A stretch of 64,000 nucleotides of DNA from Flavipsychrobacter sp. (GTDB lineage Bacteria; Bacteroidota; Bacteroidia; Chitinophagales; Chitinophagaceae). Both the position numbers and the translations under genes were made by a program. Location of the stretch: contig JAEUVY010000018.1 in NCBI GenBank assembly GCA_016786565.1, positions 1 through 64,000 on the forward strand. The letters are read 5' to 3'. The notes under the pieces were generated by a model that was given only the letters and a program-made list of their open reading frames with translations, ran no database searches and was not told the DNA's origin. This document shows positions 21,700 through 42,012 of the stretch, piece after piece; position 1 is the stretch's first letter; each line of letters begins with the position of its first letter.

Positions 21700-22578
21700 T
21701 CACTTGGCAAATACGGTACCAGCCGATAGCCATGCAGCGTTGAACGCGTCCATATCCAGCGGCAACGAAACGGAATGCTCACGGCACCAGTCCAGAATAT
21801 TCTCTGTGGCCATATTGCCTACCAGTTCATCCTCGGCCATGGGGCAGCCGCCAATACCCTTCAGCGCACTGTCGAAGCTGCGACAACCGGCGGCATAGGC
21901 AGCATCCATCTTTTCGCGCCAGTTATCGGGCGCCGAATGAAAGTGCGCGCCTATACGCATTTCGGGGAAGCGTGGAATAAGGTTTGAGAAGATGTAAGTG
22001 ATATTCGCGGGGTCAGCCACGCCTATGGTGTCAGACATTGCAACGGTCTTTATGCCCATTGCAGCCAGTTTGCCTACCTGTTCTATTGCTATCTCAGCGT
22101 TGTACGGGTCTCCGTAAGGATTGCCGAAACCCATAGAGATATATACCACCAACTCTTTTCCGTTCTTCACGCACAGGTCCTGGATCTCTGCCACCTGCTC
22201 CATAGACTGTGCAACAGTCTTGTTAGTATTGCGCATCTGAAAGGTTTCTGAAATGGAAAGCGGGAATCCGAGGAAGCTGATCTGAGGATACTTCACCGCG
22301 TCTTCAGCACCACGGGTATTGGCGATGATTGCCAGCAATTTAGTTTGGGTGGTTGAAAGATCGAGCTTGCCAAGCACCTCGGCCGTGTCGGCAAGTTGGG
22401 GTATGGCTTTAGCCGAAACAAAGGAGCCGAAATCGAGGATATCGAACCCTACTTTCAGCAATAAATTGAGGTATTGCGCCTTTTCGTCGGCAGGTATGTG
22501 GCGTGCCCAACCCTGCATTGCATCGCGGGGACATTCAGTGAGTATGAGTGCGTCTTTAACGGAAGAATTGTTCTGCAT
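21700..22578 (-). CDS. Hydroxymethylglutaryl-CoA lyase
   Basis: A 292-residue TIM-barrel enzyme that cleaves HMG-CoA to acetyl-CoA and acetoacetate, the last step of leucine breakdown. Key stretches are ECPRDAMQGW, with the catalytic Arg and Asp where most homologues have VGPRDGLQNE, then FGSFVSAKAIPQLAD, SDTIGVADP, GAHFHSAPDN (metal-binding His pair) and the signature GIGGCPMAEDELVGN. A -7 box at 22625 lies inside a longer possible frame, so the ATG at 22578 is preferred. It follows the signalling operon by 71 bases but probably has its own promoter. Confidence 0.9.
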   Translation of the reverse strand: MQNNSSVKDALILTECPRDAMQGWARHIPADEKAQYLNLLLKVGFDILDFGSFVSAKAIPQLADTAEVLGKLDLSTTQTKLLAIIANTRGAEDAVKYPQISFLGFPLSISETFQMRNTNKTVAQSMEQVAEIQDLCVKNGKELVVYISMGFGNPYGDPYNAEIAIEQVGKLAAMGIKTVAMSDTIGVADPANITYIFSNLIPRFPEMRIGAHFHSAPDNWREKMDAAYAAGCRSFDSALKGIGGCPMAEDELVGNMATENILDWCREHSVSLPLDMDAFNAAWLSAGTVFAK

Positions 22579-22624
22579 AGTCCAAACCCTTCCGCGTAAA
22601 AGATAAGGCGCGGCCGGGGTGGCG

Positions 22625-22632
22625 CAAAGATA
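22625..22632 (-). promoter_or_regulatory. TATCTTTG -7 box before HMG-CoA lyase gene
   Basis: Read leftward this is TATCTTTG, matching TAnnTTTG, 46 bases before the start. No clear -33 TTG is seen. Confidence 0.4.
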
Positions 22633-22649
22633 CGGGATATTAACAACCA

Positions 22650-23045
22650 CTATCCGAGCAGAACCGACAGGTTGTTGCTGGTGAGTGGTTTATTGAGGAA
22701 TTGCTTTACCGACCGGTAATTATGCACTTTGTTCAGATCGGCCTCATTGATAGAGGAAGAAATAATATATACCGTGTAGTTCCTGGTTATCTCCTGAGGG
22801 AGCTGCTCGAAAGCCTCTACAAACTCGAACCCATTCATGATGGGCATTTGTATGTCTACGAGCAGAATAGTGTGCGACTGTTCGTCTACCGGATTGGCAG
22901 CGATGTGGTCCAGCGCGTCGCGCGCCTGCAGGAACGAGCGGATAGATTCGCACTTGCCGGTGTTTCTGATGATCTTCTCGGCAATGAAGCAATCGAGTTT
23001 GCTATCATCGATCACCATGAAGTTGAGTTTCTTATTTGGTACCAT
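22650..23045 (-). CDS. Stand-alone receiver-domain response regulator
   Basis: A 131-residue receiver domain. The acidic pocket is Asp13-Asp14, the phosphoacceptor is Asp64 in LLVDIQMPIMNG, the switch Ser lies in YIISSS, and Lys119 is in LNKP. There is no output domain, so it probably acts as a phosphate sink or relay member, or by protein contact. The gene start overlaps the end of the receiver-kinase gene by 14 bases. It is the last gene of the five-gene leftward operon. Confidence 0.87.
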   Translation of the reverse strand: MVPNKKLNFMVIDDSKLDCFIAEKIIRNTGKCESIRSFLQARDALDHIAANPVDEQSHTILLVDIQMPIMNGFEFVEAFEQLPQEITRNYTVYIISSSINEADLNKVHNYRSVKQFLNKPLTSNNLSVLLG

Positions 23046-24138
23046 GTAAGTTGCCCGGTATAGTGACTTTAAATATTGTTCCCTCGTTCAATTTTGACTC
23101 CACTTCTATTTTACCGCCCAGTTTATTCAATGCATCTTTAACATTATACAATCCCAGTCCCGAACCGGTGTCCTCCGAAGTGGCACGGTAGAACATTGTA
23201 AAGATATTATTAACGTAGTCTTCATGTATGCCGATACCATTATCATTTACGAGAATCTCAGCTAAATTATCTTTCACTGATATTTTTACATCCACCATCT
23301 TATTGCTCTCCGCCTTCTTCTGAAAATTGAAAGCATTGGAAAGCAGATTATTCAGGATCATCTTTATCGATATCTCATCTGAATAAAACAGACCATTCTG
23401 CTCAACATCCCATGAAAAATTAATATCATCATTCACAGCCACTATCCTGAAGATGGCACCTATATCCCCCATCAACTGTTTGAAATCTATGGCTGTAAAT
23501 TGCAGTACACCTCGTTTCAGTTTATAATACTCATGCGTATTCTTAATATACTCATCTATCTTGCGCACTGCCTCGGCCATCATCCCCAGTAGCTCCCGCA
23601 ACTCGTTGATGTTGTCCATTTCTTTGGCCAACTCCAACGCGCCGATCACACTCACCAGTGGTCCACGCACATCGTGCGTGATGCTGTATGCGAATTTGCC
23701 CAGCTCATCATATGCCGATTGAAGTTCCTTGTTCTTTTCGACCAACATGGAATTGGTAAGGTAGAACTTATTGGCTTCTTCAATTGCCGACCGAACATCA
23801 TGATCGGTCCATGGCTTTTTGATGTAGCGGAAAATGTGGCCGCGATTCACCGAATCGATAACTGATTCAATGTCGGTGTATCCGGTGATGAGCATACGAA
23901 CCGGATCGGGATACAATTTCCTCATCTCTTCAAAAAACTGCACACCGGTCTTGTCAGGCATCCTCTGATCGCACAATACAACACTTATGTCGCTGTGATC
24001 CCGAAGAAACTCGTATGCCAGTGTGGTATTAGAGGCGATATACACCGTATAATCGAATCGAAAAGTTGCCTTGAACCCATTCAGGTTGTTTTGCTCATCA
24101 TCGATGTACAGTATCTTTATTTTTTCGCCTGTCTTCAC
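23032..24138 (-). CDS. Receiver-histidine kinase (REC-HisKA-HATPase)
   Basis: A 368-residue soluble signalling protein with inverted hybrid order. An N-terminal receiver (1-120; Asp57 in CDQRMPDKTG, Lys in KKPW) is joined through a short helix to HisKA (His155 in YSITHDVRGPL) and an HATPase domain (NLLSNAFNF, DNGIGI, GSGLGL). Such proteins usually receive a phosphoryl group that controls their own kinase. The GTG start follows the stop of the 7TM kinase gene with no gap. The receiver is close in sequence to the divergent gene at 29384 (both have DQRMP...TGV.F, YPDP.R.L.TGY and KPW). Confidence 0.88.
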   Translation of the reverse strand: MKTGEKIKILYIDDEQNNLNGFKATFRFDYTVYIASNTTLAYEFLRDHSDISVVLCDQRMPDKTGVQFFEEMRKLYPDPVRMLITGYTDIESVIDSVNRGHIFRYIKKPWTDHDVRSAIEEANKFYLTNSMLVEKNKELQSAYDELGKFAYSITHDVRGPLVSVIGALELAKEMDNINELRELLGMMAEAVRKIDEYIKNTHEYYKLKRGVLQFTAIDFKQLMGDIGAIFRIVAVNDDINFSWDVEQNGLFYSDEISIKMILNNLLSNAFNFQKKAESNKMVDVKISVKDNLAEILVNDNGIGIHEDYVNNIFTMFYRATSEDTGSGLGLYNVKDALNKLGGKIEVESKLNEGTIFKVTIPGNLHGTK

Positions 24139-26283
24139 TTACGCGTTTTTTTGAAGTAGTGGTAATTTAATAATAAACTCTGTTCCTTTCCCCAACTCGG
24201 TATTCACTGTTACTTGCCCGTTGTGCTTGTTGATGGTATTGTATGCTATGGACATTCCCAACCCGGTGCCTTCACCAACATCTTTTGTGGTAAAAAACGG
24301 TTCAAACAACTTCTTCTTCGTGTTTTCATCCATCCCTGTTCCGTTATCCACCATCGAAATATACACAAAATGTTCGTCGGATGTAGTAGTGACCGTAAAT
24401 TTTCCGCCCTCTTTGGAATTAAATTTCTTCTTTATAGCGTACGCGGCATTGGAAATGATGTTCAGAAATACCTGATTCAGCTTGCCCGGATAACATTCGA
24501 CCAGTGGCAAATTTCCGAAGTTCTTTTCAACAATTATCTCGTGCCCCAATAAATTATTGCAAATTACCAGCGTTGAATCAATTCCTTCGTTGATGTTTGC
24601 CTTTTTGAGGTCATCCTCATCCAATCTGGAGAATACCCTCAATCCTTTCACTATTTCCTGTGTTCTGTTTGCGCCTTCGCCTATGCCATTGAGCAACATC
24701 CCGATCTCTTCTTTCAGGTATTCGAAGTCTATCTCTTCCTTGTATTCGGTTATCTTTTTCTTTTTGGCTTCAGCATTGTCATCAGCAAGGCCTATCTGCT
24801 CTATCTCGTTCATTGCCTCCAGCAAAATAGCAACATCCCGATTCAGCGGACGAATGTTGGATGTGACAAAATTGATGGGGTTATTGATCTCGTGCGCAAT
24901 ACCGGCTGTAAGCTGACCAAGAGACGCCATTTTCTCAGACTCTACAAGCTGGGTCTCGGCTTCTTTCAGATCGGTGAGCGCTTTGTGCAACTCCTGATTT
25001 GAGAGGTTGAGTTCCTGGGTGCGCTCATTCACCTTACGCTCCAAGACCACATTTTGTTCTCTCACAAGCTTTTCATTTTCCACCAAAAGGGCCAGTTCGT
25101 TGGCGCGCGCCTGGTCTTTCTCCTTCCTGTAAGTATTGATCTTGTCAGCAAGTGCGAATGACAGTAATGCAACCTCGAAAGCGGAACCTATAAGAATGGC
25201 GTTGCTGGTAAATCCGTTATAGGGCAATACCCCGGAATCTTTCAGGATGTATATGATCACCCCTGTGAGGAAGAATGACCATGCAATAGTGAGATACAAT
25301 GCCGGCTTATATCCTTTCCTGTAAATACTGATACCAGCGAACATAATTGTGAATGACACCAGACTGGCCGTGCCCTGAATGAGCTGCTGTGCAGCGACAA
25401 ACTGCCCCGAAAGATTGATAGCTATACCGACAAAATACAAAACAAGGATACCCTGAAAAACCCGGTATAATTTGGGCCTGTTTTCCCTGATGCCCAAAAA
25501 GCGAAACAGGAAAAATATTGCGGTAATGCCCGATAGCGCCAAAGCAATATTGGTCATCTGAATAGTGAGCCAGGTGTTCTCGCGCCAAAGGAATTTCGAG
25601 GCATACCCCTTGAGACAGGCCTGAACCAAGCCTACTGTAACGATGTACAATACATAGTAGAGGTAACTGCTATCGCGAACCGTAATGAAAATAAAGATGT
25701 TGTAAAAGAACATCACGCAAATAATGCCGATGTATATTCCAAAGAACAACTGATCCTTATTTACCGATTCCCAAACAGAATATTCGCGTGCCACTGACAC
25801 CGGCACCTCCATCACGTTATTGCTGGATACCCTTAACCATACAGTCAATGCTGAGTCGTACGGGATAATGAGCCTAAAAACGGGGAACTGTGTATTGTAC
25901 TCCTTCAGGGAAAACGGAACGGCCTCGCCTGCTTTTCTGCGCGTAAACCCTTTTGCTCCGGCAACGGGCACGTACAGATCAACATCCTTCAAAATCCCGC
26001 TATGTATCTTCAGAAACAGGTCGTCCCAGTGTCGGTCGTTTTTTGCCTCTATTCTGAACCAATAAACCGAACCTGTAAGACCATAATTGGGAACAATATT
26101 CTTTTCGGCGTTGAATGACATGTTTACCACGCTATCAATCGTCAACGTTCCGGCTTTATCTTCCAGGACCGACACTGAGGTAACAAGGCCACGATCAACG
26201 AAGCCTGATTGTGCGGTAGCCGTCCGGACACCAAACATCACAATCACTGACAAACAACAGAATAATCTCGATAATGCCGTCAT
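24139..26283 (-). CDS. 7TMR-DISM histidine kinase
   Basis: A 714-residue sensor kinase. A signal peptide (1-24) is followed by a periplasmic 7TMR-DISMED2-type beta domain (about 30-170, with the typical GSVYWFRIEAKN), seven membrane helices (about 175-385) and a coiled coil (about 390-460). HisKA has His464 in LTAGIAHEINNPINFV, and the HATPase domain has NIISNAAYAI, DNGTGM and GTGLGMSI. DISMED2 domains are proposed to bind carbohydrates or other small ligands. The gene is third in the operon, 8 bases after the acyltransferase gene, so the kinase may sense the product or state of that pathway. Confidence 0.9.
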   Translation of the reverse strand: MTALSRLFCCLSVIVMFGVRTATAQSGFVDRGLVTSVSVLEDKAGTLTIDSVVNMSFNAEKNIVPNYGLTGSVYWFRIEAKNDRHWDDLFLKIHSGILKDVDLYVPVAGAKGFTRRKAGEAVPFSLKEYNTQFPVFRLIIPYDSALTVWLRVSSNNVMEVPVSVAREYSVWESVNKDQLFFGIYIGIICVMFFYNIFIFITVRDSSYLYYVLYIVTVGLVQACLKGYASKFLWRENTWLTIQMTNIALALSGITAIFFLFRFLGIRENRPKLYRVFQGILVLYFVGIAINLSGQFVAAQQLIQGTASLVSFTIMFAGISIYRKGYKPALYLTIAWSFFLTGVIIYILKDSGVLPYNGFTSNAILIGSAFEVALLSFALADKINTYRKEKDQARANELALLVENEKLVREQNVVLERKVNERTQELNLSNQELHKALTDLKEAETQLVESEKMASLGQLTAGIAHEINNPINFVTSNIRPLNRDVAILLEAMNEIEQIGLADDNAEAKKKKITEYKEEIDFEYLKEEIGMLLNGIGEGANRTQEIVKGLRVFSRLDEDDLKKANINEGIDSTLVICNNLLGHEIIVEKNFGNLPLVECYPGKLNQVFLNIISNAAYAIKKKFNSKEGGKFTVTTTSDEHFVYISMVDNGTGMDENTKKKLFEPFFTTKDVGEGTGLGMSIAYNTINKHNGQVTVNTELGKGTEFIIKLPLLQKNA

Positions 26284-26291
26284 TCAACTCC

Positions 26292-26978
26292 TCATTTAAT
26301 AGAAAGCCTGTAATCAATCGTCACGTCTCCCTTTGGTCCGGTTACGACCGCCACATGGTCGGGATTTTTCATGATCTCAAAAATATGCGCCCTGTCCACT
26401 TCAGTGGAGTTACTCATGACCCCGAGATCGTTTATGACCATTGCAGTTGCCACGAGGTCGAGTTTGGGATAGTTAAAAAACCCATTATTTCCCAGATAGG
26501 TCTCAATACTAAACCCCGCGTTCAGGCACATATTCACTGTAACCGGTGCGGCGAGTGCAAATAATGAGTCAACCTTCAGGTGATAAGCAAGCGCTATTGC
26601 CGACCTGAGAATAAAGAAACTATAACCGTATCCCGCAATTTCCTTTGCATTCCACAAACCGCATGCTTCCGCAATGCGTTTGCCCCGGTGCATGTTGATC
26701 ACTTCGTGTATTTTCTCATCAACCTGCCCCACAGCCTTTACTATTGGAAGCGGCAGTTCCTCGTCTGCTATCTGTACCCGCACGCCGCCCAATGCTCGCC
26801 CATCGTCCGACGCTTCGGCCAGAATGACATAGGTATTTTTGTGCTGTGTCCATTGTGCCGTAGCCGACGTGATCATGCCTATGCCGTACATCTCAAGAAC
26901 CATCCTGTGCCCGACGATGAATTTCTGGCATGACTCTTCATCATCTATGGCACGAAACGCTCTGAAAATTACAGACAT
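26292..26978 (-). CDS. GNAT/autoinducer-synthase-like acyltransferase (putative)
   Basis: A 228-residue soluble protein. Its layout resembles GNAT-fold acyltransferases of the LuxI/FeeM N-acyl amino acid synthase type: an N-terminal helical part (CQKFIVGHRMVLEMYG), a beta hairpin with a basic turn (YVILAEASDDGRALGGVRVQ, 50-69), a second strand RIAEACGLWN (101-110), a helix, and the late pattern LFALAAPVTVNMCLNAGFS typical of the last GNAT strands. The family call is moderate and the acyl donor and acceptor are unknown. It starts 12 bases after the E1-nitroreductase gene, so the two are surely co-transcribed. Confidence 0.55.
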   Translation of the reverse strand: MSVIFRAFRAIDDEESCQKFIVGHRMVLEMYGIGMITSATAQWTQHKNTYVILAEASDDGRALGGVRVQIADEELPLPIVKAVGQVDEKIHEVINMHRGKRIAEACGLWNAKEIAGYGYSFFILRSAIALAYHLKVDSLFALAAPVTVNMCLNAGFSIETYLGNNGFFNYPKLDLVATAMVINDLGVMSNSTEVDRAHIFEIMKNPDHVAVVTGPKGDVTIDYRLSIK

Positions 26979-26990
26979 TAGATTTTATTG

Positions 26991-29291
26991 TCAATTTGAA
27001 TAATAAACGTCGTCAACATCTAATCTGATCGATTTCACAGCGGGTTCTTCGGACCTGAAGATCCTGAACATGAACAGGGGCTCTTCTGCCGTTAAAGATA
27101 AGTTAAACAATTCAATAAAAGAATGGTGCATCTCAGCGAATTTTGCGACTATCTGATCGCTCATACCGCCACCGTTTCCATGTACCATTCGTGCGAAGTG
27201 GAATATGGGCGCCATAACGGGCTGCACTGCCAAACCATGTTTTTCTGTTACCAGCCAGGCTCGTTGCATAGCGCGACCGGCATTGATGCAACTTTCGGGA
27301 GAGAAATCGCGCCCTGAGATAAGGCATACGGCCGAGGCTGTTGCCATGAGGTCTTTGGTCATATTTTCAAGAACGGCACCGGCTTCCCAGTCGCTCAGCA
27401 ACTGCATGGCCCTGCCATCTCTTATGACCCTGAAACCGACTTGGTCTTTAGGTTTGAGATCAAGTGTCTTTATATCGAGGCCGTCTTTGATCTTTGCCGG
27501 GTCGTTGCCCCAGCGCATTTCTTTTCTGAAAAGGTCCATGTGCCCTTCAGGAATAAACATCCTCAACTTATCAGATCTGCCTGCTATCTCTGCTATTCGG
27601 GAGATGTCATCCTTTTCCGTCAGGAATTTCACGGAGGACACACCGGCCTTCATTGCCTCTGTCCTCACTTCATCCAATATTGCAGTATCTATCGCTGTAC
27701 CATCGCCCGGCTTTCGGTTGGTATGCCTGCTTTTCAAATATGCGAACAGCGGATCGGCCACCCTTCCGGCATCAGCCTTGACCGCAACTGCGGCCACCGG
27801 ATTGAGGTTTCCTGAGGCTTTCAGAGGGAAAAGCACCACATCAAGGGCCATACCGGCAGCGGATGCCGCTATATCCACATTTTCGATAGCACTACCCATT
27901 GAAAGGTGCGTGATCATATTATCGTAATTGGCGAAGGCAAACGAACGAGCAGGATCATCGAACAGGAGCAGGCGCTTGCCATCGTTATACCACTTCCACG
28001 GCTGGTTGTTGCCGGCAGATGGTGCCAAAACCGCCGCATCCATGAGCTTTCTTGTAATAGCCGCATCGATGGCGGTGCTAACGGGAACTGTTGCAGGCAG
28101 TTTTGCTGACAAAGCCTTGATATCGGTCAACGTAATTGGATCGGGTTCCGCGGGAAACTCAATTTCCTTCGTATTACCATCGGTGATCAGCTCGTCGATA
28201 TCAATAAAGTACCTTCCGGAAACGCTCAACTGACGAAGTAAAACCTTCCTGCATATATCAGCCATTATACCGCCCCCCATAGTAACTGCACTTGCCAACT
28301 GTGGCCAGGTATTGATGGTCTGACCGATCTCGACCGCTGACGCTTTGAGCCGTGGCGACATCGTATCTATACCAACTATAGGCAATATATATGGCAGCTT
28401 TTCTTCCATCGTTTTCAGGTCCCGCATCTGTCCCAGATCCAGATGATCGACATAACCATGCAGTATCGGGCGATCGGGCTCAAGATCAAAACGCTCAATG
28501 TCCACCGTACACCTATCGCTTGCCTCCATTAGTACCGGAATTCCGAATTTTCTGGCCGCTACCCTGCTTTTTATCTTTACATCTACACTGTCGCACTCGT
28601 CAATCAAAACGTCCAGTTTCCCGCCTTTGGTGAGGAAGTCGTCTATATTATTATCATTTATCCCTTCATGATAGCAGGTTACTTTAAGAAAAGGATCGAT
28701 CTCCGCTATCTCTCTGGCCACCAATACTGTTTTTAGCAGCCCCATATTAAATACGCCACTGCGCAAACGGTTGAGGTTGGTTATTTCCAATGTATCATAG
28801 TCGGCAATACGCAACTCGCCAAATGTCCTTTCCATGGCCATGGTGAGGGATACCGACTGCCCTACTGAAAGCCCTATTACCCCCACCCTTCTGGTTGCCA
28901 GCAGCGCCTCCTCCTGATCGGTTATCTTGTACTTATTGCGATTGGTTCGCACATATATGAACTCCTGTTCATCAAGTAAATGTACCAGCTTCTCACTCCA
29001 CGGATAGTACACCCATACACCATAATCAGCGGAACTGCGCCCGGCGAGACGTTCCTCGATCTTTTCGTCTATTTCCCCGTCCGTCATTGTCTTTGACGGA
29101 TGGTCTGTCTTTACTACCTCCCGCAATTGCGACAAGATAGTATCATAGACCTGAATATACGGTTTGCTCTCCAGGAGCCTATGTAGGGCCATTGCCTGTT
29201 CGGGGTCGGTTGTCCTGAAAAACGTGGGCGTAAATGTGCCGTTTGCGGTCTCCGTCGCTGCTATTCTCTCGGAAATGATTTTTGCTGTCAC
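26991..29291 (-). CDS. ThiF/E1-nitroreductase fusion (Rv1355c/MoeY family)
   Basis: A 766-residue cytoplasmic protein with two enzymes in one chain. Residues about 130-360 are a ThiF/MoeB/E1-type adenylating domain: strand plus loop VGVIGLSVGQS (136-146), Asp164-Tyr-Asp166 with Glu169, the Arg-bearing NLNR (172-175), and the conserved DECD (231-234). The usual Gly-rich loop is altered and no CxxC zinc pairs are present. Residues about 405-740 are an FMN nitroreductase domain (APSAGNNQPWKW at 423-434, SCINAGRAMQRAWLVTE at 667-683). This order matches mycobacterial Rv1355c (MoeY), whose reaction is not established. A GTG start is used, because an ATG three codons upstream runs into a stop. It leads the five-gene operon. 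Confidence 0.82.
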   Translation of the reverse strand: MTAKIISERIAATETANGTFTPTFFRTTDPEQAMALHRLLESKPYIQVYDTILSQLREVVKTDHPSKTMTDGEIDEKIEERLAGRSSADYGVWVYYPWSEKLVHLLDEQEFIYVRTNRNKYKITDQEEALLATRRVGVIGLSVGQSVSLTMAMERTFGELRIADYDTLEITNLNRLRSGVFNMGLLKTVLVAREIAEIDPFLKVTCYHEGINDNNIDDFLTKGGKLDVLIDECDSVDVKIKSRVAARKFGIPVLMEASDRCTVDIERFDLEPDRPILHGYVDHLDLGQMRDLKTMEEKLPYILPIVGIDTMSPRLKASAVEIGQTINTWPQLASAVTMGGGIMADICRKVLLRQLSVSGRYFIDIDELITDGNTKEIEFPAEPDPITLTDIKALSAKLPATVPVSTAIDAAITRKLMDAAVLAPSAGNNQPWKWYNDGKRLLLFDDPARSFAFANYDNMITHLSMGSAIENVDIAASAAGMALDVVLFPLKASGNLNPVAAVAVKADAGRVADPLFAYLKSRHTNRKPGDGTAIDTAILDEVRTEAMKAGVSSVKFLTEKDDISRIAEIAGRSDKLRMFIPEGHMDLFRKEMRWGNDPAKIKDGLDIKTLDLKPKDQVGFRVIRDGRAMQLLSDWEAGAVLENMTKDLMATASAVCLISGRDFSPESCINAGRAMQRAWLVTEKHGLAVQPVMAPIFHFARMVHGNGGGMSDQIVAKFAEMHHSFIELFNLSLTAEEPLFMFRIFRSEEPAVKSIRLDVDDVYYSN

Positions 29292-29383
29292 TGTTTACAT
29301 TTTAGTGGTTAATTAGAAACAATCTTATTATCTTTACTGGACTTCAAAAAAAGGGGATAAATAGCTTCGTAAATATACAAAGT

Positions 29384-29848
29384 ATGGGTAACAACAAAAT
29401 AACAATTTTGTATGTTGATGATGAGATGAATAACCTGATCTCCTTTAAAGCCGTATTCAGGATAAAGTATAACGTACTTACTGCAATTAGTGGGGAAGAA
29501 GCAATAAAATTATTAAAAAACAATACAGTAGATATTATAATAACCGACCAGAGAATGCCCAATATGACGGGTGTTGAATTTCTGGAATCTATCCTTGATG
29601 AGTATCCTGATCCAATAAGGATCCTGCTAACCGGTTATGCTGACATGAATGCGGTTATAGACGCCGTAAACAAAGGAAAGATCTTCCATTACCTCACAAA
29701 ACCATGGAACGAAGAGGAGCTGGACATGACCATTACCCGGGCATATGATGTGTACCGATCGAGAATGGAAGAAAAGGAAATGACACAAAAACTCAGTCTT
29801 TCCAACGAACAGCTCGAGTTCCTGCTGAGGCAAAAATTACTCTCCTGA
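29384..29848 (+). CDS. Receiver-domain response regulator, divergent from the E1-nitroreductase operon
   Basis: A 154-residue protein with a receiver domain (1-120: Asp12-Asp13, phosphoacceptor Asp55 in ITDQRMPNMTG, Lys in LTKPW) and a short coiled-coil tail (DVYRSRMEEKEMTQKLSLSN) but no output domain. The receiver is closely related to that of the kinase at 23032. The tail looks like the beginning of the linker helix of such kinases, so the gene may be a truncated paralogue. It is transcribed away from the operon across a 92-base gap, and its last 12 bases overlap the convergent NlpC/P60 gene. Confidence 0.85.
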   Translation: MGNNKITILYVDDEMNNLISFKAVFRIKYNVLTAISGEEAIKLLKNNTVDIIITDQRMPNMTGVEFLESILDEYPDPIRILLTGYADMNAVIDAVNKGKIFHYLTKPWNEEELDMTITRAYDVYRSRMEEKEMTQKLSLSNEQLEFLLRQKLLS

Positions 29849-32262: not shown

Positions 32263-35200
32263 TTATGGCTTGAACACCAGTCGCACCAACTGCGTACTGC
32301 CGTCATCGCCCTTGAATCGCATCATATAGACTCCGGCAGCCATATCGGAAGGCAGAACGATATTCGCGTGATTTGCACTGATATCGTATTTACCTACTTC
32401 TTTGCCATCGATAGTATAGATAGTGGCTACACCATGTATACCTGACTCAACAGAAAGTGAACCTTGAGTTGGGTTAGGGAATACTGAGAAACTGAATGCA
32501 CCGTTTGACACCACAGGTGTACCTGGCTTAGACACGCCGCTAAATACAGTTACATTATGTACCTCATAGTCAACGCCACAGTCTCCGTAGTAGAATAACG
32601 TTATGATCGCATTTCCTGCAGACACACCGGTTACTACTCCTGAAGAAGAAACCGAAGCAACTTCGTAATTAGAAGAAGTCCATGAACCTCCCGTTACTCC
32701 CGCAGTCAAAACAATGGTATCACCAACTATTACACTCTCCGGTCCTGATATCTCACCACCAACCGCAGCGCAAGCGCCGAATGAAGGCATACCGCACACC
32801 CAGTTTGATGTACAGCCTTCAAGAGCGAAATTGTTGAGGGATGCATGGTTTTCAGATACAGCTGCAAACGCGGTTGAATTGCCCGGATTGCTACCCTGAA
32901 CGATACCCTGATCGAACTTGTGATAAACCATCAGACCGGTTTCAGTACCAGACAGCGGAGTATGCATGTTTGCAACGATCTCCTCAGCAGTACGAGCCAC
33001 ATTCCACAGACGAACCTCATCGATACGGCCTTTGAAATAGTTATCGGCAACGAACTGTGATTTACCTATCCAGTTATTGATAGTTGCACCCAACATAGAT
33101 GGGTTGTACCCAAATGAAGGCGAAGTTGCTACTACCTCTCCGTTCACATAGATCTTGGCAGTATCTCCATTGATGGTCACTGCTATGTGTGTCCATGCAT
33201 ATGTTGGGATGGTTGCAGATGGCGCATCAAGAACGTGCTCGCCAGCGCCTATGTTCATCGCAAACCTGAGGTACCCAGAACAGAATGCTGATGACGACAG
33301 GAATATAGTTTGTGAAGGACCGTTGCCGAAATCGAAGATTCGCTCCCAGCACTGGTGTTCTTTAACATATATCCATGACTCATAAGTAAACTGAGTTGCA
33401 GAAGACACATCCTGAGCAAAAGAGATGTAGTCGTTAGAACCATCGAACTCGAGACCCGCAGGTGAACCAATAGACACAACGTGCGTTGTATAACCAGGGC
33501 AAGAACCTGACATATAGTAAGTGATCACTGAAGTTCCGACACCTGCGCCTGTAACCAGGCCGGTAGTATCAATCGTGGCAACCGAAGTGTTAGAACTGCT
33601 CCAGATACCACCTGATACCGTGCTGCTGAGTCCGAATACATCGCCAACGAGTGCTGAGTGGAGACCGGAAATAGTTCCGGCAGTCGCAGGGCCGTTTACT
33701 GTTACAGTTTTTACTACGAAGCAACCCGAAGTACGTGCATATGTGATAGAAGCAACACCCGCATTAACACCACTTACAAGACCTGTAGATGTTACAGATG
33801 CAACACTTGGGTTAGAGCTGCTCCATGTACCACCGGCAAGGCTGTTGGTCATAGAGATGTTGCTACCAACACATACCGAAGAAGCACCGCTGATGGCAGG
33901 AAGTGTCGGATAGTAGGTCACAGTTACCGGTGTTGGCGTACTGTTACAACCGTTCACTGTAGCTATCACTGAATAAGTACGTGTCAGCGGAGTAGTACCG
34001 GTTGTTGTGAAGTAGGAGTAAACCGAGTCATTGTCAGTACCTGTTGTGTATGCACTTGACATAGCTGCATCATTGAACAGACCTGTTACAGGAGTCCATG
34101 TTGTGGTTCCCGGCATGGTGTAGTTTATTATAATTCCCCATGAAGTGAACGCACCATAATCAGCACCGGCAAGGTCTGCACCACTCAGCGTCCATGACCC
34201 GTTTGGCGTGCTGTAGAGCGAAGTCAGATTCGATACATTTGACGTAAAGCCTGAAGGCCCGACACCAACTACACCATCTGGAATGAATGTACCTGTGAAC
34301 GGCGCCCCACCTGCAGATATAGGTGTTGTTGCATCTGAACTGAACACCGTATTTACAAAGTCGTTACCACTACCACCTCGGAAGTATGAAAGATTAATTG
34401 TATTTCCGTTTGGTGCAGAAAGATTTACTACCATATCTCCATCATACGTGTGTGTCATATTGAAGGACACAGAAACACCGGTCACTACCGCGCCTGCCGG
34501 AACACCTGAAACAGACAAACTTGTGCTGTTTCCGGCTGAACTAGCATCAGGGAACGGAACGTAGATCGAACCTGAAGACGCTGTAGCAGTGCCACCGGAT
34601 GCTGACCCGGCAGAAAGTAGTGCGTTACTGCCTGAGCAGATAACAGCCGACGAAGGTGTAACAGCAGGAGCTGCAGGCAGGCTATAAACCGTAAACGTAC
34701 GAGTAGTTGCGCATCCGGTTGTTGTAACACGGTAAGTAATAGTAGTGGTTCCAAGGCTGAGACCACCAGCAACACCAGACGTAGAACCAACTGTTCCTAC
34801 TGAAGGGTTGCTGCTGCTCCATGTACCACCTGTTCCACTTGTAAGCGTTGTTGTTGTACCCAGACAAAGAGAAGAAGCACCAGCAATTGCAGCAGGTAGC
34901 GCCTTAACAGTGAATGCTGTAGTCCTGTAACATCCGGAATTAACAAGATATGTAATATTTACAGCACCTGCACTTACACCTGTAACAACACCGGACCCTG
35001 CATCTACAGTTGCCCTTGCAGTATTACTGCTTGTCCATGTTCCACCGCCTACTTCGTGTGCAAGCGTTGTGGTTTCGCCCACACATACATTGGTTGTACC
35101 CGTAATAGACACAGGAACGGGGTTAACCGAAACGGTAGTGATACTGAGACAACCTGTACCGATGCGGTACGAAATATTGGCGGTTCCTGTTGCAACACCG

Positions 35201-38200
35201 GTTACAACACCGGTAGATGAATTAACATTAGCTTTTGAGGTTGCGCTACTGCTCCAGGTTCCACCTGACATACTATTGGTGAGCGCCAATGTCTGACCTA
35301 CACACACAATGTCACCACCCGTATTCGCAGGAAGCGAACCGTTGACGGTTATATTGAAAGTGCGGCTGCAACCGAAGGCATTGGTATAACTGATGGTAGT
35401 TGACCCAACGGCAACGCCATAAACTGAACCCGTTGTTGAAGATGCAGAACCCACAACAGCAATTGATGTGTTAGCACTGCTCCATGTCTGACCCGCGGTA
35501 GCAGAAGTAAGTGTACCGCTATTACCAACACATATGAATGAAGGACCTGAAATTGTTGCAGGCAACACGTTCACCGTGTAGCTCAGCGTGCGGCGACAGC
35601 CGGTGGTTGGCAATGTATAACTGATCGTAGAGTTACCTGCACTCAATGCATTCACCACGCCGGTGAAGGTATCAATTACAGCAGCAGAAGTGTTACTGCT
35701 GGTCCAGCGACCGCCGGTTGTAGTACTGCTAAGCGTATCTATGCTACCAACACAGGTAGTGGCGCCACCCATTATTACATCCGGCGCAGGATTAACAGTT
35801 ATAGTCCGCGATACGAAGCAACCGGTTGAAGCAGTATAAGTGATATTGGTAGAACCACCGCCTGTACCGGTAACAACACCGGTTGTAGGCGCAACTGTGG
35901 CAACAGCCGAATCGCCTATAGACCATGTGCCGCTACCACCTGTTACACTTGTAAGTGTAGTAACACCAAACTGGCACAATACGGCTGTACCAGTGATAGC
36001 CGGCGGCAGATTATTTACATTAACAGTAATTGTTTTATAACAACCTGAACTTAGCGTGTAAGTGATAACCACTGTTCCGTTAGTGATACCTGTTACCACA
36101 CCCGAACTGGCATCAACTGTGGCACGGGCGGTATTGCCGCTGCTCCATGATCCGCCTGACACAGGGTGACTCAATGTTGTTGTGTATCCCACACATGCAC
36201 TTGTTGAACCGGTGATAGCTGGCAATGAAGCATTGACAGTTACCTGTTTTACCGTATAGCAAGTAGGAGATGTCCGGTATGAGATCCTTGCGGTACCCGC
36301 TGCAACAGCATTCGCGATACCAGTACCGGAACCAATAGATGCAATAGTCGCCGCACTTGATGACCAGGTACCACCTGTTGATGTGGTGGTCATAGCTGTG
36401 GAGCTACCCACACAAAGCGCAGTATCGCCGATAATTGCAGATGGCGCGGCACTCACATTAACCGTAGCCATACGTGAACATCCGAGCGCAGTGTAACTAA
36501 CTACCGCAGTACCAACGCTAACACCGGTCACAATAGTAGAGTTGGCTGTTGCTGCTGTGCCTGTAACCGCCACACCAGCGTCCGAACTGCTCCAGGTACC
36601 ACCTGTAGTAGATGAACTTAAAGTAGTCACGCTTCCAACACACACGTTAGTGGTTCCGGTTATAACTGCAGGGGTTGTTCCGACAGTAAATACCGTTGTA
36701 CGACGACAGCCTGTTGACAAAGTATAAGAAATAGTTGTGGTACCCGCTGAAACGCCTGTAACCACACCCGACATCGAACCAATAGTAGCCCTTGTAGGCA
36801 GACTGCTTGTCCAAGAGCCGCCTGAAGGATAACCGACAAGGGTAACACCGCTGGCAACACATGTAGCGGTAGAACCGGTAACAGAATCCGGACGAGGGTT
36901 CACGGTTACCGTGCGGGTTCCGTAACAACCCGAAGTAAGGTAACTGATTAAAGTTGTACCTGCATCAACACCGGTCACAACACCTGATGTGGCATTGATA
37001 GTCGCCTTGGTCAGATCACTGCTACTCCAAACGCCACCTGCAGGACTGCTGGTAAGGTTGGTTGTGCTGGCAGCACAAACTGTTGCAGTACCATTGATTA
37101 CCGGAAGACTGCGAACGGTGAAAGTGGCGGTTTTGAAACAGCCGCCTGAAACTGAATACGTGATTGTAATTGTTCCACCGGTAATGCCGGTAACAACACC
37201 TGTGAAGGTATCAACGGTAGCCACAGCAGTATTACTGCTCGACCATGTTCCGCCAGACACCGGGTGGCCCAATGTACGGGTACTACCCACACAGACGTTG
37301 AGTGAGCCTGTAATGGATGCAAGTGCGCTGCTCACAGTTACACCTGTAACGGCCTGGCAACCCACGCCCGGCAACTTATAAGTGATATTGGCAGTACCTG
37401 TTGCAACCGGAGTCACGATACCGGTAGTTGCACCCACGGTTGCTTTTGCTGTGTTACTGCTGCTCCATGTTCCTCCTGCGGTCGCATTAGAGAGCAACGA
37501 TGTGCTTCCCATACAAATAGTGGTAGCACCTGTGTTAGCACCCGGCACATTGTTTACCGTAACAACTCCGGATGCCGCACATCCGCTGCCATTTACATAG
37601 CTAACTGTTGATGTACCCGCAGAAATCGCAGTGAACGCCCCGGTTGAAGCCGAAATGGTACCCACTGATGGATCGGACGAACTCCATGTGCCGCCACCCG
37701 GAGACGACGTGAGCGCTGTTGTCCCTCCTACACATGCTGTAAGAGTTCCGGTGATGGTAGCCGGTGCAGAATTGATAGTAACCGACTTGATAGAACGGCA
37801 ACCCGATGGAAGAATGTAGGTAATATTTGTTGCACCTGCACTCACCGCAGTCAAAATACCGGTCGAAGAATTTATCGTGGCTGCGCTCGTATTACTACTG
37901 CTCCACGTTCCGCCCGATGGCGAACAAGAGAATGACGAATCTATCACACCAGGGCAAATGAATGAATTACCCGAAATAGCACTCGGTGCTTCATTTACAG
38001 AAATAACCTTGGTTGTGAAACATGAACCAGTGCTTGTATATGTAATAGTAGCTGTGCCTATTGTGTTCCCCGACACAACACCTGTGTTTGTGTCAACAGA
38101 GGCGACGGACGGATCGCTGCTTGTCCACGTACCGCTTCCTCCCACAACACCTGTGTAAGTTGTAAATGAGCCTACACATACTGTATTGCTACCAGTGATA

Positions 38201-41200
38201 GGCGACGGAGCAACGACTACATTCATCGTAATTGTCCTGAAACATCCGCTGCTAACAGTGTAAGTAACAACACATCCGCCAAGAGTAATACCAGTAACAA
38301 CGCCTGTTCCTGCATCAACCGTTGCTTTTGTAGTGTCTTCACTTGACCATACCCCCCCAGACACAGGATGACCGAGGTCTGAAGTATTTCCCTGACAAAC
38401 AGTAGAACTTCCGGTAATAGGTGCAGGCACCGTATTAACCGTGAGGTGTGTTGTCGCATAACAATGAGAAGACATTACATAATATATGTTTGCTGTACCC
38501 GGAGCAATCGCATAAACATGACCGGTTGCAGAACCAACGATCGCAACATGCAGATTGTTGCTCGACCAATATCCACCGGAAGTTGGATTTGTGAGATCAG
38601 ACCATCCTCCATCGCATATCAGATCATCTCCGACGTTCGGAGTAACAGCAGCATTTACCGTCACTTGTTCCGCCCTGACACAACCACTTACACCGTGTGT
38701 ATAACTTATTAGTACAACACCGGTACCCACCCCCGTAACTACACCACCTGCAGAAACGGTCGCAATAGATGCATTGGCACTGGACCATGTACCACCCGTT
38801 GTTGTTGTCTCCAGCTCAGACGAGTTACCTACACAAAGTGTATGATCTCCTGTGAAGGGTGGCGAGGTATTACCAACCGAAACTGTAATAGTACTGTAAC
38901 AACCGGCTGCTGTAGTATAAGAAATGATAGCTGTACCACCGATAACTGCCGTAACGAGACCCGTTGAAGCATCAACTGTTGCAACCGATGAGTTAGAAGT
39001 GCTCCAGGTTCCGCCGGAAGGCGTAGCTGAGAAAGTCATAGTATCGTAGGCGCACATAGCTGTTGCGCCAGTGATAGCCGAAGGCGTTTCGTTTACCGTC
39101 TGAACGCGGTGCACAAAACATCCGTAATATGCAAAAGTGATCGTTGTAGTTCCCGGAGCAACACCAGTAACGGCACCCGAACCGGAATTGATAGTTGCAA
39201 TTGTAGTGTCGCTACTTGTCCACGATGCACTTGAAGCGATCATGCTGGACAGAGATCCCGTCTGCCCTACACATATCGGATTGGGGCCTGATATTGCCGG
39301 TGGCATCAGGTTAGACTGTACCAAATAGGTTGTAAAGCAACCCGGAACCAAAGTATAAGTAATATGAGTATTACCAACAGACACAGCTGTAACCACCCCA
39401 GTTGAAGTCACAGTAGCTATGGTTGGATCAGCACTGCTCCAAGTACCCCCGCCCATAGGATGGGTAAACTGGCGAGATCCGCCACCGATACATAGATAAA
39501 TGTAGCCACTGATCGCCGGTACCGTTGTGTTTACTGTTACAGTCGCGACCTTGGTACAGCCTGATGAAACAGTATAAGTGATGTTTGCAGTTCCACCGGC
39601 AACGCCCGTCACAACACCTGTAGTAGAGTGAACGGTAGCAATTGATGTGTTGCTGCTTGACCATGTTCCGCCCCCAACTGCATGACTGAGTGGAGAAGAT
39701 GTACCAACGCAAAGATTCAACTGCCCGATAACGGTATCCATTGCAGGGTTAACCGTAACCTGTGTCACCGCTATACATCCGTGAGCGATAACCGAATATG
39801 TGATATTTGCCGTACCAACAGTGATGCCGGAAACAACCCCTGTGCTCGTATTCACTGTGGCATTGGAATTGCTGCTGCTCCAGGTTCCTCCCGGCTCAGC
39901 ATTACTCAAGGTCACCGTTTCGCCTATGCACACAAGCGGATCGCCCGTGTTCGGACCGGTGCTTACTGTCACAACGGTAGTTGCAGCGCAACCATTAGAA
40001 TGCGTGTAGCTGATAGTTGCTGTTCCTGTATTTACACCATAAACAACACCGGTACTTGCATTCACAGTTGCAACTGCGGTATTGGCGCTTGACCACGTGT
40101 GACCACTTGGAGTTGAAGAAAGTGTACGTGTCTGGTTGTAACAAATTATCTGATTTCCTGTAATAGCTGTTGGCATCACTCCTACTGTTACTGTAGCAGA
40201 CCTGAAACAGCCACCCTGTGTATAAGTAATATTGGCAGTACCTAATATATGGCCTGACACAACCCCCAAAGATGAGACAGACGCAGTTGCAGGCGTACTG
40301 CTGGTCCACACACCACCTGAGGGACTTGACGAAAGTGTGGAAGTGCTACCCTGACAAACCAGCAGAGATCCGCTGAAGACTGCCGGACGTGGATTTACCG
40401 TGAATTCACGGGTCACCTGACATCCGGTTGCTGTGATCCTGTAGGTAACAAGTGTGGTTCCTGCAGACAGACCGGTTATAGCACCGGTTGAAGAGTTAAT
40501 GGTGCCAACAGATGTATTACTGCTGCTCCATGTGCCACCTCCTGTAGAGTTAGTTAAAGTTGTAGAAGAAGCCTCACATACTGATGCAGCACCACCGATG
40601 GTATTCGGAAGCGGATTCACAGTAACAACTGTGGTCTTAAAACATCCTGAAGTTATTAAGTAGGTCACAACCGAAGTGCCGGCAGTAACACCGGTGATCA
40701 CACCAGTAGATCCTACCACGGAAACGTTACCATTGCTGCTCGACCATGTTCCGCCTGAAACTGCGTTTGACAGTGTAGTCGTTAATCCCACACACACTGA
40801 TGCTGTTCCGGTGTTATTGGCCAGTGCGGCATTTATAGTCACTTGCGTAATGCTGCGACATGACGCAGGAGAAGTAGTAGTATATGTAATATTTGCATTT
40901 CCCACAGATACTGGTGTCACTACACCGGTTCCGCTATTCACATTTGCAATTCCGGTAGCACCAGATGTCCATGCCCCACCACTTGTAGCATTGGCAAGAG
41001 TTGTCGTTTGCCCCATACACACTAGTGCAGCACCTGTATTGGGTGTCATTGCACCGGTTACGGTTACCGTCACCACCCTTGAGCAGCCTGAAGCGTTGGT
41101 ATAACTAATAGCGGCTGTTCCGGCAGAGACACCGGTAACAGTACCATTGTTGACATCTGCAGTCACAACTGTGGCAACAGAAGGATTTGAACTTGACCAG

Positions 41201-42012
41201 GTCTGACCAGCTGTTGCCGAATTTAAAGTTGTTGTGCTTCCCTGACAAACAGTGGTAGTACCTGTAACGTTGGCCGGAGTGTTCACCACACTTACCGCAG
41301 TAAGAATGCGACATCCGTTTGTGGCAGTGTAACTAACATTCGTTGTACCTCCCGTTGCACCGGTAAAGACACCCGAAGAACTACCTATCGTACCCACTGC
41401 GATATTGCTGCTGGCCCATGTACCGCCAGAAGGTGCACCGATGTATGTCTGAGAGGCTCCCGCACATGTTGTTGTCGGTATCACCGTCACCGTTGGGATA
41501 GCATTGATTGTCTGAACCGATTCAACATAACAATCTAACGTACCATTACGGTAAGAGACGATTGTTGTGCCGGCCGTCAGACCTGCAAGGTTGCCACCGG
41601 TGTTGATAGTACCCACCGCCATATTACTGCTTGACCAGTTGTTTCCGCTGGTCGGAACTGCAGTATAAGTGGTAAAACTTCCCACACAGGTTGGAGCGGT
41701 ACCCACAGAAACACCCATATTTAACGCCGTGCCAACCACCGTAACAGTTGTGGTGAATACGGTGCTGGGAGGAATATTATAACTGATAGCCGCAGTACCC
41801 GCAGCTACGCCGGTCACCACACCAGTCGTCGGGTCAATCGTTGCCTTCGAAACATCACCACTGCTCCAGGTTCCCCCGGTAGTGTTGATCGTCAGCGTGG
41901 TTCGGGAACCTCCCAAACAGACTCTGAGGTGTCCGCTGATCGTTTGGGCCGTTGCTGAACCAGCGGAGCCAAGTAGCATGAGCGCGGCAAATAAGTACTG
42001 CAGTTTTCTCAT
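32263..42012 (-). CDS. Giant T9SS-exported adhesin-like protein with 36 Ig-like repeats
   Basis: A 3249-residue surface protein. A signal peptide (1-22) is followed by 33 BIG2-like Ig domains of about 74 residues (about 24-2450). Each has a VCVG-type Cys near its start, a GGTWSSSNTSVATV-type strand pair, a TGVVTGVSAGT turn and a GC near its end, so a disulfide per domain is likely. A proprotein-convertase P-domain-like module follows (about 2480-2635, TYDGDMVVNLSAPNG), then two more Ig repeats, a LamG/concanavalin-like domain (about 2850-3025, LEFDGSNDYISF to GRIDEVRLWN), one last Ig repeat, and a type A T9SS sorting domain (about 3170-3249, FSVFPNPTQGSL). It is probably secreted by type IX and attached at the surface for adhesion; the ligand is unknown. 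Confidence 0.9.
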   Translation of the reverse strand: MRKLQYLFAALMLLGSAGSATAQTISGHLRVCLGGSRTTLTINTTGGTWSSGDVSKATIDPTTGVVTGVAAGTAAISYNIPPSTVFTTTVTVVGTALNMGVSVGTAPTCVGSFTTYTAVPTSGNNWSSSNMAVGTINTGGNLAGLTAGTTIVSYRNGTLDCYVESVQTINAIPTVTVIPTTTCAGASQTYIGAPSGGTWASSNIAVGTIGSSSGVFTGATGGTTNVSYTATNGCRILTAVSVVNTPANVTGTTTVCQGSTTTLNSATAGQTWSSSNPSVATVVTADVNNGTVTGVSAGTAAISYTNASGCSRVVTVTVTGAMTPNTGAALVCMGQTTTLANATSGGAWTSGATGIANVNSGTGVVTPVSVGNANITYTTTSPASCRSITQVTINAALANNTGTASVCVGLTTTLSNAVSGGTWSSSNGNVSVVGSTGVITGVTAGTSVVTYLITSGCFKTTVVTVNPLPNTIGGAASVCEASSTTLTNSTGGGTWSSSNTSVGTINSSTGAITGLSAGTTLVTYRITATGCQVTREFTVNPRPAVFSGSLLVCQGSTSTLSSSPSGGVWTSSTPATASVSSLGVVSGHILGTANITYTQGGCFRSATVTVGVMPTAITGNQIICYNQTRTLSSTPSGHTWSSANTAVATVNASTGVVYGVNTGTATISYTHSNGCAATTVVTVSTGPNTGDPLVCIGETVTLSNAEPGGTWSSSNSNATVNTSTGVVSGITVGTANITYSVIAHGCIAVTQVTVNPAMDTVIGQLNLCVGTSSPLSHAVGGGTWSSSNTSIATVHSTTGVVTGVAGGTANITYTVSSGCTKVATVTVNTTVPAISGYIYLCIGGGSRQFTHPMGGGTWSSADPTIATVTSTGVVTAVSVGNTHITYTLVPGCFTTYLVQSNLMPPAISGPNPICVGQTGSLSSMIASSASWTSSDTTIATINSGSGAVTGVAPGTTTITFAYYGCFVHRVQTVNETPSAITGATAMCAYDTMTFSATPSGGTWSTSNSSVATVDASTGLVTAVIGGTAIISYTTAAGCYSTITVSVGNTSPPFTGDHTLCVGNSSELETTTTGGTWSSANASIATVSAGGVVTGVGTGVVLISYTHGVSGCVRAEQVTVNAAVTPNVGDDLICDGGWSDLTNPTSGGYWSSNNLHVAIVGSATGHVYAIAPGTANIYYVMSSHCYATTHLTVNTVPAPITGSSTVCQGNTSDLGHPVSGGVWSSEDTTKATVDAGTGVVTGITLGGCVVTYTVSSGCFRTITMNVVVAPSPITGSNTVCVGSFTTYTGVVGGSGTWTSSDPSVASVDTNTGVVSGNTIGTATITYTSTGSCFTTKVISVNEAPSAISGNSFICPGVIDSSFSCSPSGGTWSSSNTSAATINSSTGILTAVSAGATNITYILPSGCRSIKSVTINSAPATITGTLTACVGGTTALTSSPGGGTWSSSDPSVGTISASTGAFTAISAGTSTVSYVNGSGCAASGVVTVNNVPGANTGATTICMGSTSLLSNATAGGTWSSSNTAKATVGATTGIVTPVATGTANITYKLPGVGCQAVTGVTVSSALASITGSLNVCVGSTRTLGHPVSGGTWSSSNTAVATVDTFTGVVTGITGGTITITYSVSGGCFKTATFTVRSLPVINGTATVCAASTTNLTSSPAGGVWSSSDLTKATINATSGVVTGVDAGTTLISYLTSGCYGTRTVTVNPRPDSVTGSTATCVASGVTLVGYPSGGSWTSSLPTRATIGSMSGVVTGVSAGTTTISYTLSTGCRRTTVFTVGTTPAVITGTTNVCVGSVTTLSSSTTGGTWSSSDAGVAVTGTAATANSTIVTGVSVGTAVVSYTALGCSRMATVNVSAAPSAIIGDTALCVGSSTAMTTTSTGGTWSSSAATIASIGSGTGIANAVAAGTARISYRTSPTCYTVKQVTVNASLPAITGSTSACVGYTTTLSHPVSGGSWSSGNTARATVDASSGVVTGITNGTVVITYTLSSGCYKTITVNVNNLPPAITGTAVLCQFGVTTLTSVTGGSGTWSIGDSAVATVAPTTGVVTGTGGGSTNITYTASTGCFVSRTITVNPAPDVIMGGATTCVGSIDTLSSTTTGGRWTSSNTSAAVIDTFTGVVNALSAGNSTISYTLPTTGCRRTLSYTVNVLPATISGPSFICVGNSGTLTSATAGQTWSSANTSIAVVGSASSTTGSVYGVAVGSTTISYTNAFGCSRTFNITVNGSLPANTGGDIVCVGQTLALTNSMSGGTWSSSATSKANVNSSTGVVTGVATGTANISYRIGTGCLSITTVSVNPVPVSITGTTNVCVGETTTLAHEVGGGTWTSSNTARATVDAGSGVVTGVSAGAVNITYLVNSGCYRTTAFTVKALPAAIAGASSLCLGTTTTLTSGTGGTWSSSNPSVGTVGSTSGVAGGLSLGTTTITYRVTTTGCATTRTFTVYSLPAAPAVTPSSAVICSGSNALLSAGSASGGTATASSGSIYVPFPDASSAGNSTSLSVSGVPAGAVVTGVSVSFNMTHTYDGDMVVNLSAPNGNTINLSYFRGGSGNDFVNTVFSSDATTPISAGGAPFTGTFIPDGVVGVGPSGFTSNVSNLTSLYSTPNGSWTLSGADLAGADYGAFTSWGIIINYTMPGTTTWTPVTGLFNDAAMSSAYTTGTDNDSVYSYFTTTGTTPLTRTYSVIATVNGCNSTPTPVTVTYYPTLPAISGASSVCVGSNISMTNSLAGGTWSSSNPSVASVTSTGLVSGVNAGVASITYARTSGCFVVKTVTVNGPATAGTISGLHSALVGDVFGLSSTVSGGIWSSSNTSVATIDTTGLVTGAGVGTSVITYYMSGSCPGYTTHVVSIGSPAGLEFDGSNDYISFAQDVSSATQFTYESWIYVKEHQCWERIFDFGNGPSQTIFLSSSAFCSGYLRFAMNIGAGEHVLDAPSATIPTYAWTHIAVTINGDTAKIYVNGEVVATSPSFGYNPSMLGATINNWIGKSQFVADNYFKGRIDEVRLWNVARTAEEIVANMHTPLSGTETGLMVYHKFDQGIVQGSNPGNSTAFAAVSENHASLNNFALEGCTSNWVCGMPSFGACAAVGGEISGPESVIVGDTIVLTAGVTGGSWTSSNYEVASVSSSGVVTGVSAGNAIITLFYYGDCGVDYEVHNVTVFSGVSKPGTPVVSNGAFSFSVFPNPTQGSLSVESGIHGVATIYTIDGKEVGKYDISANHANIVLPSDMAAGVYMMRFKGDDGSTQLVRLVFKP
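32660..41900 (-). repeat. Array of about 36 tandem 220-bp Ig-domain coding repeats
   Basis: The repeat unit is about 74 codons. I count 36 copies of the GGTWSS-like core, 33 contiguous from the N-terminus, two after the P-domain-like module and one after the LamG-like module. DNA identity between units is modest, which points to old duplications followed by divergence rather than a recent expansion. Confidence 0.8.

Follow-up and report, generated by a model that had tools for sequence, protein, structure and literature searches.

A candidate synthase–receptor operon of Bacteroidota pairing a predicted oxazolone pathway with a 7TMR-DISM sensor kinase

Introduction

A stretch of 64,000 nucleotides from Flavipsychrobacter sp. 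(contig JAEUVY010000018.1, hereafter the window) carries a compact operon in which the genes for a ThiF (E1)-nitroreductase fusion and a small GNAT-like protein run directly into those of a phosphorelay. This organization raises the question of what the two enzymes make and whether the adjoining membrane kinase perceives the product or controls its making. An initial sequence-only reading of the locus had taken the first two proteins to produce a small acylated or oxidized signal, or else to modify a peptide, with the kinases sensing the product or controlling its making, and had presented the whole as a candidate for an undescribed system.

To our knowledge, there is no established AHL-type system in Bacteroidota. 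In the literature on N-acyl-tyrosines and oxazolones, subscription papers being outside the scope of the search, only Pseudomonadota, Actinomycetota, and Planctomycetota were found. The authors of the work on mycobacterial synthesis consider the role of oxazolones a major unresolved question, and their paper on TrzAS mentions neither kinases nor Bacteroidota (PMC12856293). The claim of an undescribed system holds on this literature for the kinase linkage but not for the enzymes: the tie to a receptor kinase, combined with finishing enzymes that can be exchanged, appears to be undescribed, whereas the enzymes themselves are of known kinds.

Organization of the operon

The gene coordinates reproduce exactly the layout first read from the DNA, namely five leftward genes separated by gaps of 12, 8, 0, and −14 bases and a divergent receiver gene (Table 1). 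The original domain calls also stand, with Pfam and NCBIfam models identifying ThiF, nitroreductase (Acg type), 7TMR-DISM_7TM, DISMED2, HisKA, HATPase, and receiver domains. In relatives the median intergenic gaps are 4, 0, 11, and −11 bases, and the divergent receiver gene lies beside the operon in most of them. Since the window's genome encodes no 7TMR-DISM protein besides this kinase (one to five are encoded in the other carriers examined), the gene order is kept across Bacteroidota, and the gaps remain short in relatives, the arrangement is far beyond chance. The divergent region yielded no shared promoter motif, and the tally for a Bacteroidota promoter (6 of 109 each way versus 2.5 expected) was not informative.

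Table 1. Features of the operon and its immediate surroundings in the window
Feature	Position	Strand	Basis
HMG-CoA-lyase-like gene, outside the conserved module, co-transcription probable	21700-22650	-	1-base overlap with last receiver
Stand-alone receiver, 131 aa, without output domain	22650-23045	-	PF00072
Receiver-histidine kinase, 368 aa, domain make-up as PhcR	23032-24138	-	PF00072, PF00512, PF02518
7TMR-DISM sensor histidine kinase, 714 aa, proposed receptor	24139-26283	-	PF07696, PF07695, HisKA, HATPase_c
GNAT-fold protein, 228 aa; N-acyl amino acid synthase candidate (TrzA/OxzA/FeeM-like)	26292-26978	-	AlphaFold, FeeM match, hhalign
ThiF cyclase-flavin oxidase (E1-nitroreductase) fusion, 766 aa	26991-29291	-	NF005901, PF00899, PF00881
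Intergenic region, 92 bp, between divergent genes; likely site of both promoters	29292-29383		gene positions
Divergent stand-alone receiver, 154 aa, without DNA-binding domain	29384-29848	+	PF00072

The overlap between the last receiver gene and the HMG-CoA-lyase-like gene had escaped the earlier reading, and the transcript may extend past the receiver into this gene. It occupies the same place in about a dozen close relatives, and only in close ones; a supply of acyl-CoA precursors is possible, as is mere synteny. Elsewhere in the window, a leftward open reading frame of 3249 residues (32263-42012) with repeated Ig-like (BIG2-type) units and a C-terminal sorting-like domain is a candidate giant adhesin.

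The cyclase-oxidase

The 766-residue fusion belongs to the Rv1355c family, matching NF005901 with 760 bits over residues 13–762 (cut-off 476 bits); it also matches the Acg structure 2ymv and is about 31–34% identical to actinobacterial family members. The mycobacterial members of NF005901, designated TrzS, cyclize and desaturate N-acyl-amino acids to give oxazolones, turning N-acyl-Trp into tryptazolones with TrzA as the partner acyltransferase (PMC12856293). Oxazolones do not withstand acid or methanol (PMC12856293). In M. smegmatis TrzS, D217 of the ATP site and Arg540 and Gln651 of the flavin site matter (PMC12856293). Asp234 of the window fusion is invariant and falls in alignments at the position of the ThiF-motif Asp in homologues from actinobacteria, while R578 and Q690 are the likely equivalents of R540 and Q651 by numbering offset only, without a direct alignment to the M. 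smegmatis protein. On the strength of family membership, the window fusion is predicted to catalyze the corresponding ring closure and desaturation, giving an oxazolone from an N-acyl amino acid.

A second, orphan cyclase-oxidase gene (L130:8001-10286) has no acyltransferase or kinase nearby in a genome that also carries the full operon (L120). In another gene product (L091:7290-9371), the part fused C-terminally to the cyclase is a decaying oxidase domain that has ceased to match the nitroreductase model. A further ThiF protein with kinship to the Rv1355c family, encoded on a Streptomyces plasmid (L214:4164-7078), has an unknown 280-residue N-terminal part, and its gene is directly followed by that of a ketoacyl-ACP synthase III, possibly another acyl-modifying pathway.

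The acyltransferase

By sequence, the 228-residue protein has no match in Pfam, NCBIfam, or the PDB. No LuxI family model matches this protein (Pfam gives no Autoind_synth match), and 2 of 54 relatives match Acetyltransf_1 (Pfam) weakly. The earlier assignment to a GNAT/LuxI-type fold is upheld by structure prediction: an AlphaFold model of ACYLTRANSFERASE, built with the 54 relatives (pLDDT 93.5), has FeeM (2g0b) as its best PDB match (Foldseek E 4e-9; VIA Z 17.8, rmsd 2.4, 174 aligned). Also among the top matches are LasI, TofI, RpaI, and BjaI, all of them AHL synthases (Z 15.0–15.6), and some other GNATs score above these, near FeeM (Z 16.6–16.7). The published model of TyzA, a mycobacterial N-acyl-tyrosine synthase, is likewise best matched by FeeM and BjaI (PMC10404671).

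Genes that neighbor TrzS-type fusions in Actinomycetota provide a second line of comparison. In Nocardia, a 249-residue protein is encoded immediately upstream of the Rv1355c-family gene, in the position of TrzA in M. tuberculosis, and on Rhodococcus plasmids a homologue of this protein is divergent from the Rv1355c-family gene, with a GGDEF gene adjoining. Profile alignment by hhalign of the 228-residue family with TrzS-adjacent actinobacterial proteins spans 150 columns with a score of 38.1 (E 8.7e-5), against a maximum of 20.4 for 30 column-shuffled controls and 13.1 for the reversed control. It pairs Glu104 and Trp109, both invariant in the 228-residue family, with an invariant Glu and Trp of the TrzS-adjacent proteins. 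Because the alignment stands above its controls and pairs these invariant residues, the two groups are probably remote homologues, a relationship resting on sequence profiles.

The TrzS-family fusion, the FeeM-like fold, and the remote homology to TrzS-adjacent proteins together assign the first two genes to an oxazolone pathway of the TrzAS/OxzAB type, in which the reactions and the product are inferred and not shown. Homology to TrzS, TyzACB, and OxzAB (PMC12856293, PMC10404671) and the FeeM-like fold thereby lend support to the idea that the pair makes a small acylated or oxidized signal, the product itself being an inference.

A 304-residue neighbor of a mycobacterial Rv1355c gene was rejected as a TrzA candidate, as hhalign returned nothing and a plasmid search only four records. 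The N-terminal fused regions of Streptomyces and Nitratidesulfovibrio ThiF proteins were rejected as GNAT domains for want of a profile match (single sequences). The GGDEF genes next to TrzA-like and Rv1355c-family genes on the Rhodococcus plasmids (L213, L217, L243) parallel the c-di-GMP genes that adjoin trzAS in M. tuberculosis. At two loci (L088 and L182) the acyltransferase genes are tandem-duplicated within the operon, possibly for two signals.

Conservation and co-occurrence

Among 197 evenly drawn genomes of the window's taxonomic family, the acyltransferase is present in 62 and the sensor subfamily in exactly the same 62 (both, 62; one only, 0; neither, 135). The sensor subfamily is defined by at least 135 bits with the sensor part of the kinase alone, a threshold picked after the scores were known. 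The two genes are adjacent in 60 of the 62 pairs and split over contigs in the other 2. An evenly drawn sample of the phylum (395 genomes) yields 13 carriers from several families of Bacteroidota, all 13 with the kinase adjoining the acyltransferase. Within these 395 genomes, cyclase-domain matches of the fusion's family all lie at acyltransferase loci, and 3 further matches are stand-alone oxidases. Bacteroidota of soil and water carry the operon, and genomes with a name extend the list of carriers to Pedobacter, Mucilaginibacter, Parapedobacter, Daejeonella, Taibaiella, Flavipsychrobacter, and Flavobacteriales.

Across 144 Bacteroidota loci, the kinase is encoded at most three genes downstream of the acyltransferase in 141, and the other 3 stop at contig edges. 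The 144-locus and named-genome counts contain close relatives and cyclase-based sampling, so that the 197- and 395-genome figures are the least biased. The pairing noticed at first in a single genome is conserved across Bacteroidota in both samples and in the 144 loci; with this and the GNAT/LuxI-type fold of the 228-residue protein, both refutations named by the sequence-only reading fail. Two typical Bacteroidota operons carry the labels Azovibrio (L181) and Candidatus Saccharibacteria (L157), probably through binning contamination.

Exchange of the finishing enzyme

The slot for the finishing enzyme is occupied by (i) the cyclase-oxidase fusion at 105 loci, (ii) a cyclase alone at 16, (iii) an ICMT-type carboxyl methyltransferase at 7, (iv) a SAM methyltransferase at 3, and (v) an FAD oxidase at 2, with no recognized finishing enzyme at 8. 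The swap count leaves out two loci truncated at contig edges (L115 and L227) and one in which the E1 gene is not adjacent (L135). On the acyltransferase tree, the slot undergoes at least 19 changes of state (5 for whether a cyclase is present), and through all of these the acyltransferase and the kinase stay. As the slot is swapped and these two are kept, the invariant core consists of the acyltransferase, the receptor kinase, and the receivers, which is what a pair of signal synthase and receptor predicts. By inference, an N-acyl amino acid would lose its free carboxylate through cyclization and likewise through methylation. The exchange of finishing enzymes points to a combinatorial signal code as a possibility.

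Sensor kinase and phosphorelay

With a DISMED ectodomain (PF07696, 85 bits) and a 7TM domain (PF07695, 172 bits), the 714-residue kinase qualifies as a 7TMR-DISM receptor. In the model of its sensor part (pLDDT 92), the ectodomain is RetS-like (Z 16.3) and is accompanied by a 7TM bundle, sugar-binding-type folds being weaker matches to the ectodomain than RetS; jelly-roll domains are frequent sugar binders. The mean distance among relatives is 2.31 for the ectodomain versus 0.66 for the kinase core, and this greater variation fits what a receptor for varied ligands might show. Co-divergence of synthase and sensor (mirror-tree) is above permutations but weak (Spearman 0.225), with a partial correlation with the synthase of 0.19 for the sensor versus 0.10 for the kinase core. 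The 7TM part resembles class C GPCRs (Z about 14) and Wntless, which is only a lead because helical bundles often score so.

The His boxes of the kinases (GIAHEINNP and SITHDVRGP) and the receiver Asp residues (CDQRMP, TDQRMP, and VDIQMP), read directly from the translations, are apparently intact, which makes a working phosphorelay plausible. No DNA-binding output domain is found by Pfam in the operon.

Relation to known systems

A close enzymatic counterpart is TrzAS of Mycobacterium and Rhodococcus (Rv1356c-Rv1355c), which makes N-acyl tryptazolones. It shares with the window a ThiF-flavin oxidase fusion of the same NF005901 family and an acyltransferase partner with the FeeM/AHL-synthase fold, although the similarity of the acyltransferases is only remote and the fusions differ at the level of identity given above. 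The actinobacterial loci adjoin c-di-GMP genes, a hint at signaling, but no sensor kinase is mentioned for them (PMC12856293). OxzAB and TyzACB, the tyrazolone/phenazolone systems, likewise direct an N-acyltransferase, a ThiF cyclase, and a flavin oxidase at one N-acyl amino acid; OxzB and TyzB fall in ThiF subclusters different from that of TrzS (PMC12856293), and a kinase linkage is unreported for these systems in the literature examined.

LuxI/AHL systems have the synthase fold in common with the 228-residue protein. The window locus, however, has no LuxR-type receptor gene, and the proposed receptor is a membrane kinase.

A close regulatory counterpart is phcBSRQ of Ralstonia, in which a synthase, a sensor kinase, a receiver-kinase, and a receiver also form one operon (PMC8578825). 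PhcR combines a receiver and a kinase and PhcQ is a receiver, both without a DNA-binding domain (PMC8578825, PMC10653808). PhcB, however, is a methyltransferase that gives a hydroxy-fatty-acid methyl ester, and the system has no GNAT or ThiF enzyme; conversely, Pfam detects no methyltransferase among the genes of the window operon, which therefore lacks a PhcB-type synthase. A plasmid search bearing on homology of the receiver-kinase to PhcR returned generic kinases only. The window module is not a member of the Phc group, as its synthase differs and kinase homology is without evidence.

Proposed mechanism

Computation establishes the domains, the fold, the gene order, the co-occurrence, and the repeated swapping. 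The explanation that is favored, with appreciable doubt remaining, is a quorum-sensing-like synthase–receptor module in which an N-acyl-amino-acid-derived signal acts on a 7TM-DISM receptor; its enzyme reactions, product, ligand binding, and direction of phosphate flow are inferred. The FeeM-like GNAT protein would join an acyl group, donated by CoA or ACP, to an amino acid, after which the ThiF domain would activate the carboxylate of the N-acyl amino acid with ATP and close the oxazolone ring, and the flavin domain would desaturate it. The product may exit the cell or gather in the membrane; the 7TM-DISM kinase would sense it and pass phosphate through the receiver-kinase to the stand-alone receivers, which would relay it to targets outside the operon, in the manner of Phc quorum sensing. 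The finishing-step swaps in relatives would give different signal variants, by prediction an unsaturated oxazolone with the cyclase-oxidase, a saturated azlactone with the cyclase alone, and an N-acyl amino acid methyl ester with the ICMT-type enzyme.

Several observations count against this module. No product has so far been detected in any Bacteroidota, published tryptazolones mostly remain in cells, the ectodomain is RetS-like, the co-divergence is weak, and 8 loci have no recognized finishing enzyme.

For the broader proposition, that Bacteroidota hold a widespread quorum-sensing class with N-acyl-amino-acid-derived signals (oxazolones, saturated azlactones, and methyl esters), diversified by finishing enzymes and read by a dedicated 7TM-DISM receptor kinase, belief and disbelief are evenly poised. 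If true, the oxazolones of other phyla, including mycobacteria, would also be signals, and ligands would be suggested for 7TMR-DISM proteins along with endogenous small-molecule signaling in Bacteroidota. The conserved receptor-like kinase is tied to the synthase in Pedobacter and Mucilaginibacter, environmental genera that can be cultured, which makes the signaling hypothesis directly testable.

Alternative explanations

The main rival reverses the direction of control: the kinase would sense a cue from outside (envelope stress, antibiotics, or a sugar, for example) and adjust how much N-acyl amino acid or oxazolone is made for use as a membrane lipid, surfactant, or antibiotic. This is rated unlikely but is not excluded. 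Sensor kinases are frequent regulators of adjacent biosynthesis genes, and the RetS-like ectodomain with its weaker sugar-binding-type matches suits an outside cue. Oxazolones are, moreover, induced by antibiotics in proteobacteria, and in mycobacteria they are linked with stress (PMC12856293). Control of production is harder to reconcile with an operon that has no DNA-binding output, with a kinase that persists at loci where the finishing enzyme has been exchanged or is missing, and with a 228-residue protein that has the fold of signal synthases and of N-acyl amino acid synthases.

Much less credible is that the E1-nitroreductase protein modifies a peptide or protein, in a RiPP-like or ubiquitin-like manner, and that the GNAT protein acylates the same target, the other option of the sequence-only reading. 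E1 domains do activate protein C-termini as well. The fusion, however, matches over its whole length the Rv1355c/TrzS family, of known small-molecule chemistry (PMC12856293), and the near-zero gaps of the core leave no space between its genes for a conserved peptide gene, the wider flanks not being covered by this argument; peptide modification is accordingly not favored.

That the enzymes and the kinase are functionally unlinked neighbors held together by common synteny, as related genomes can retain it, is strongly disfavored, the least credible of the readings, given the perfect presence–absence match in 197 genomes, the occurrence in several families of the phylum, the variation in gene order and flanks, and the repeated enzyme swaps.
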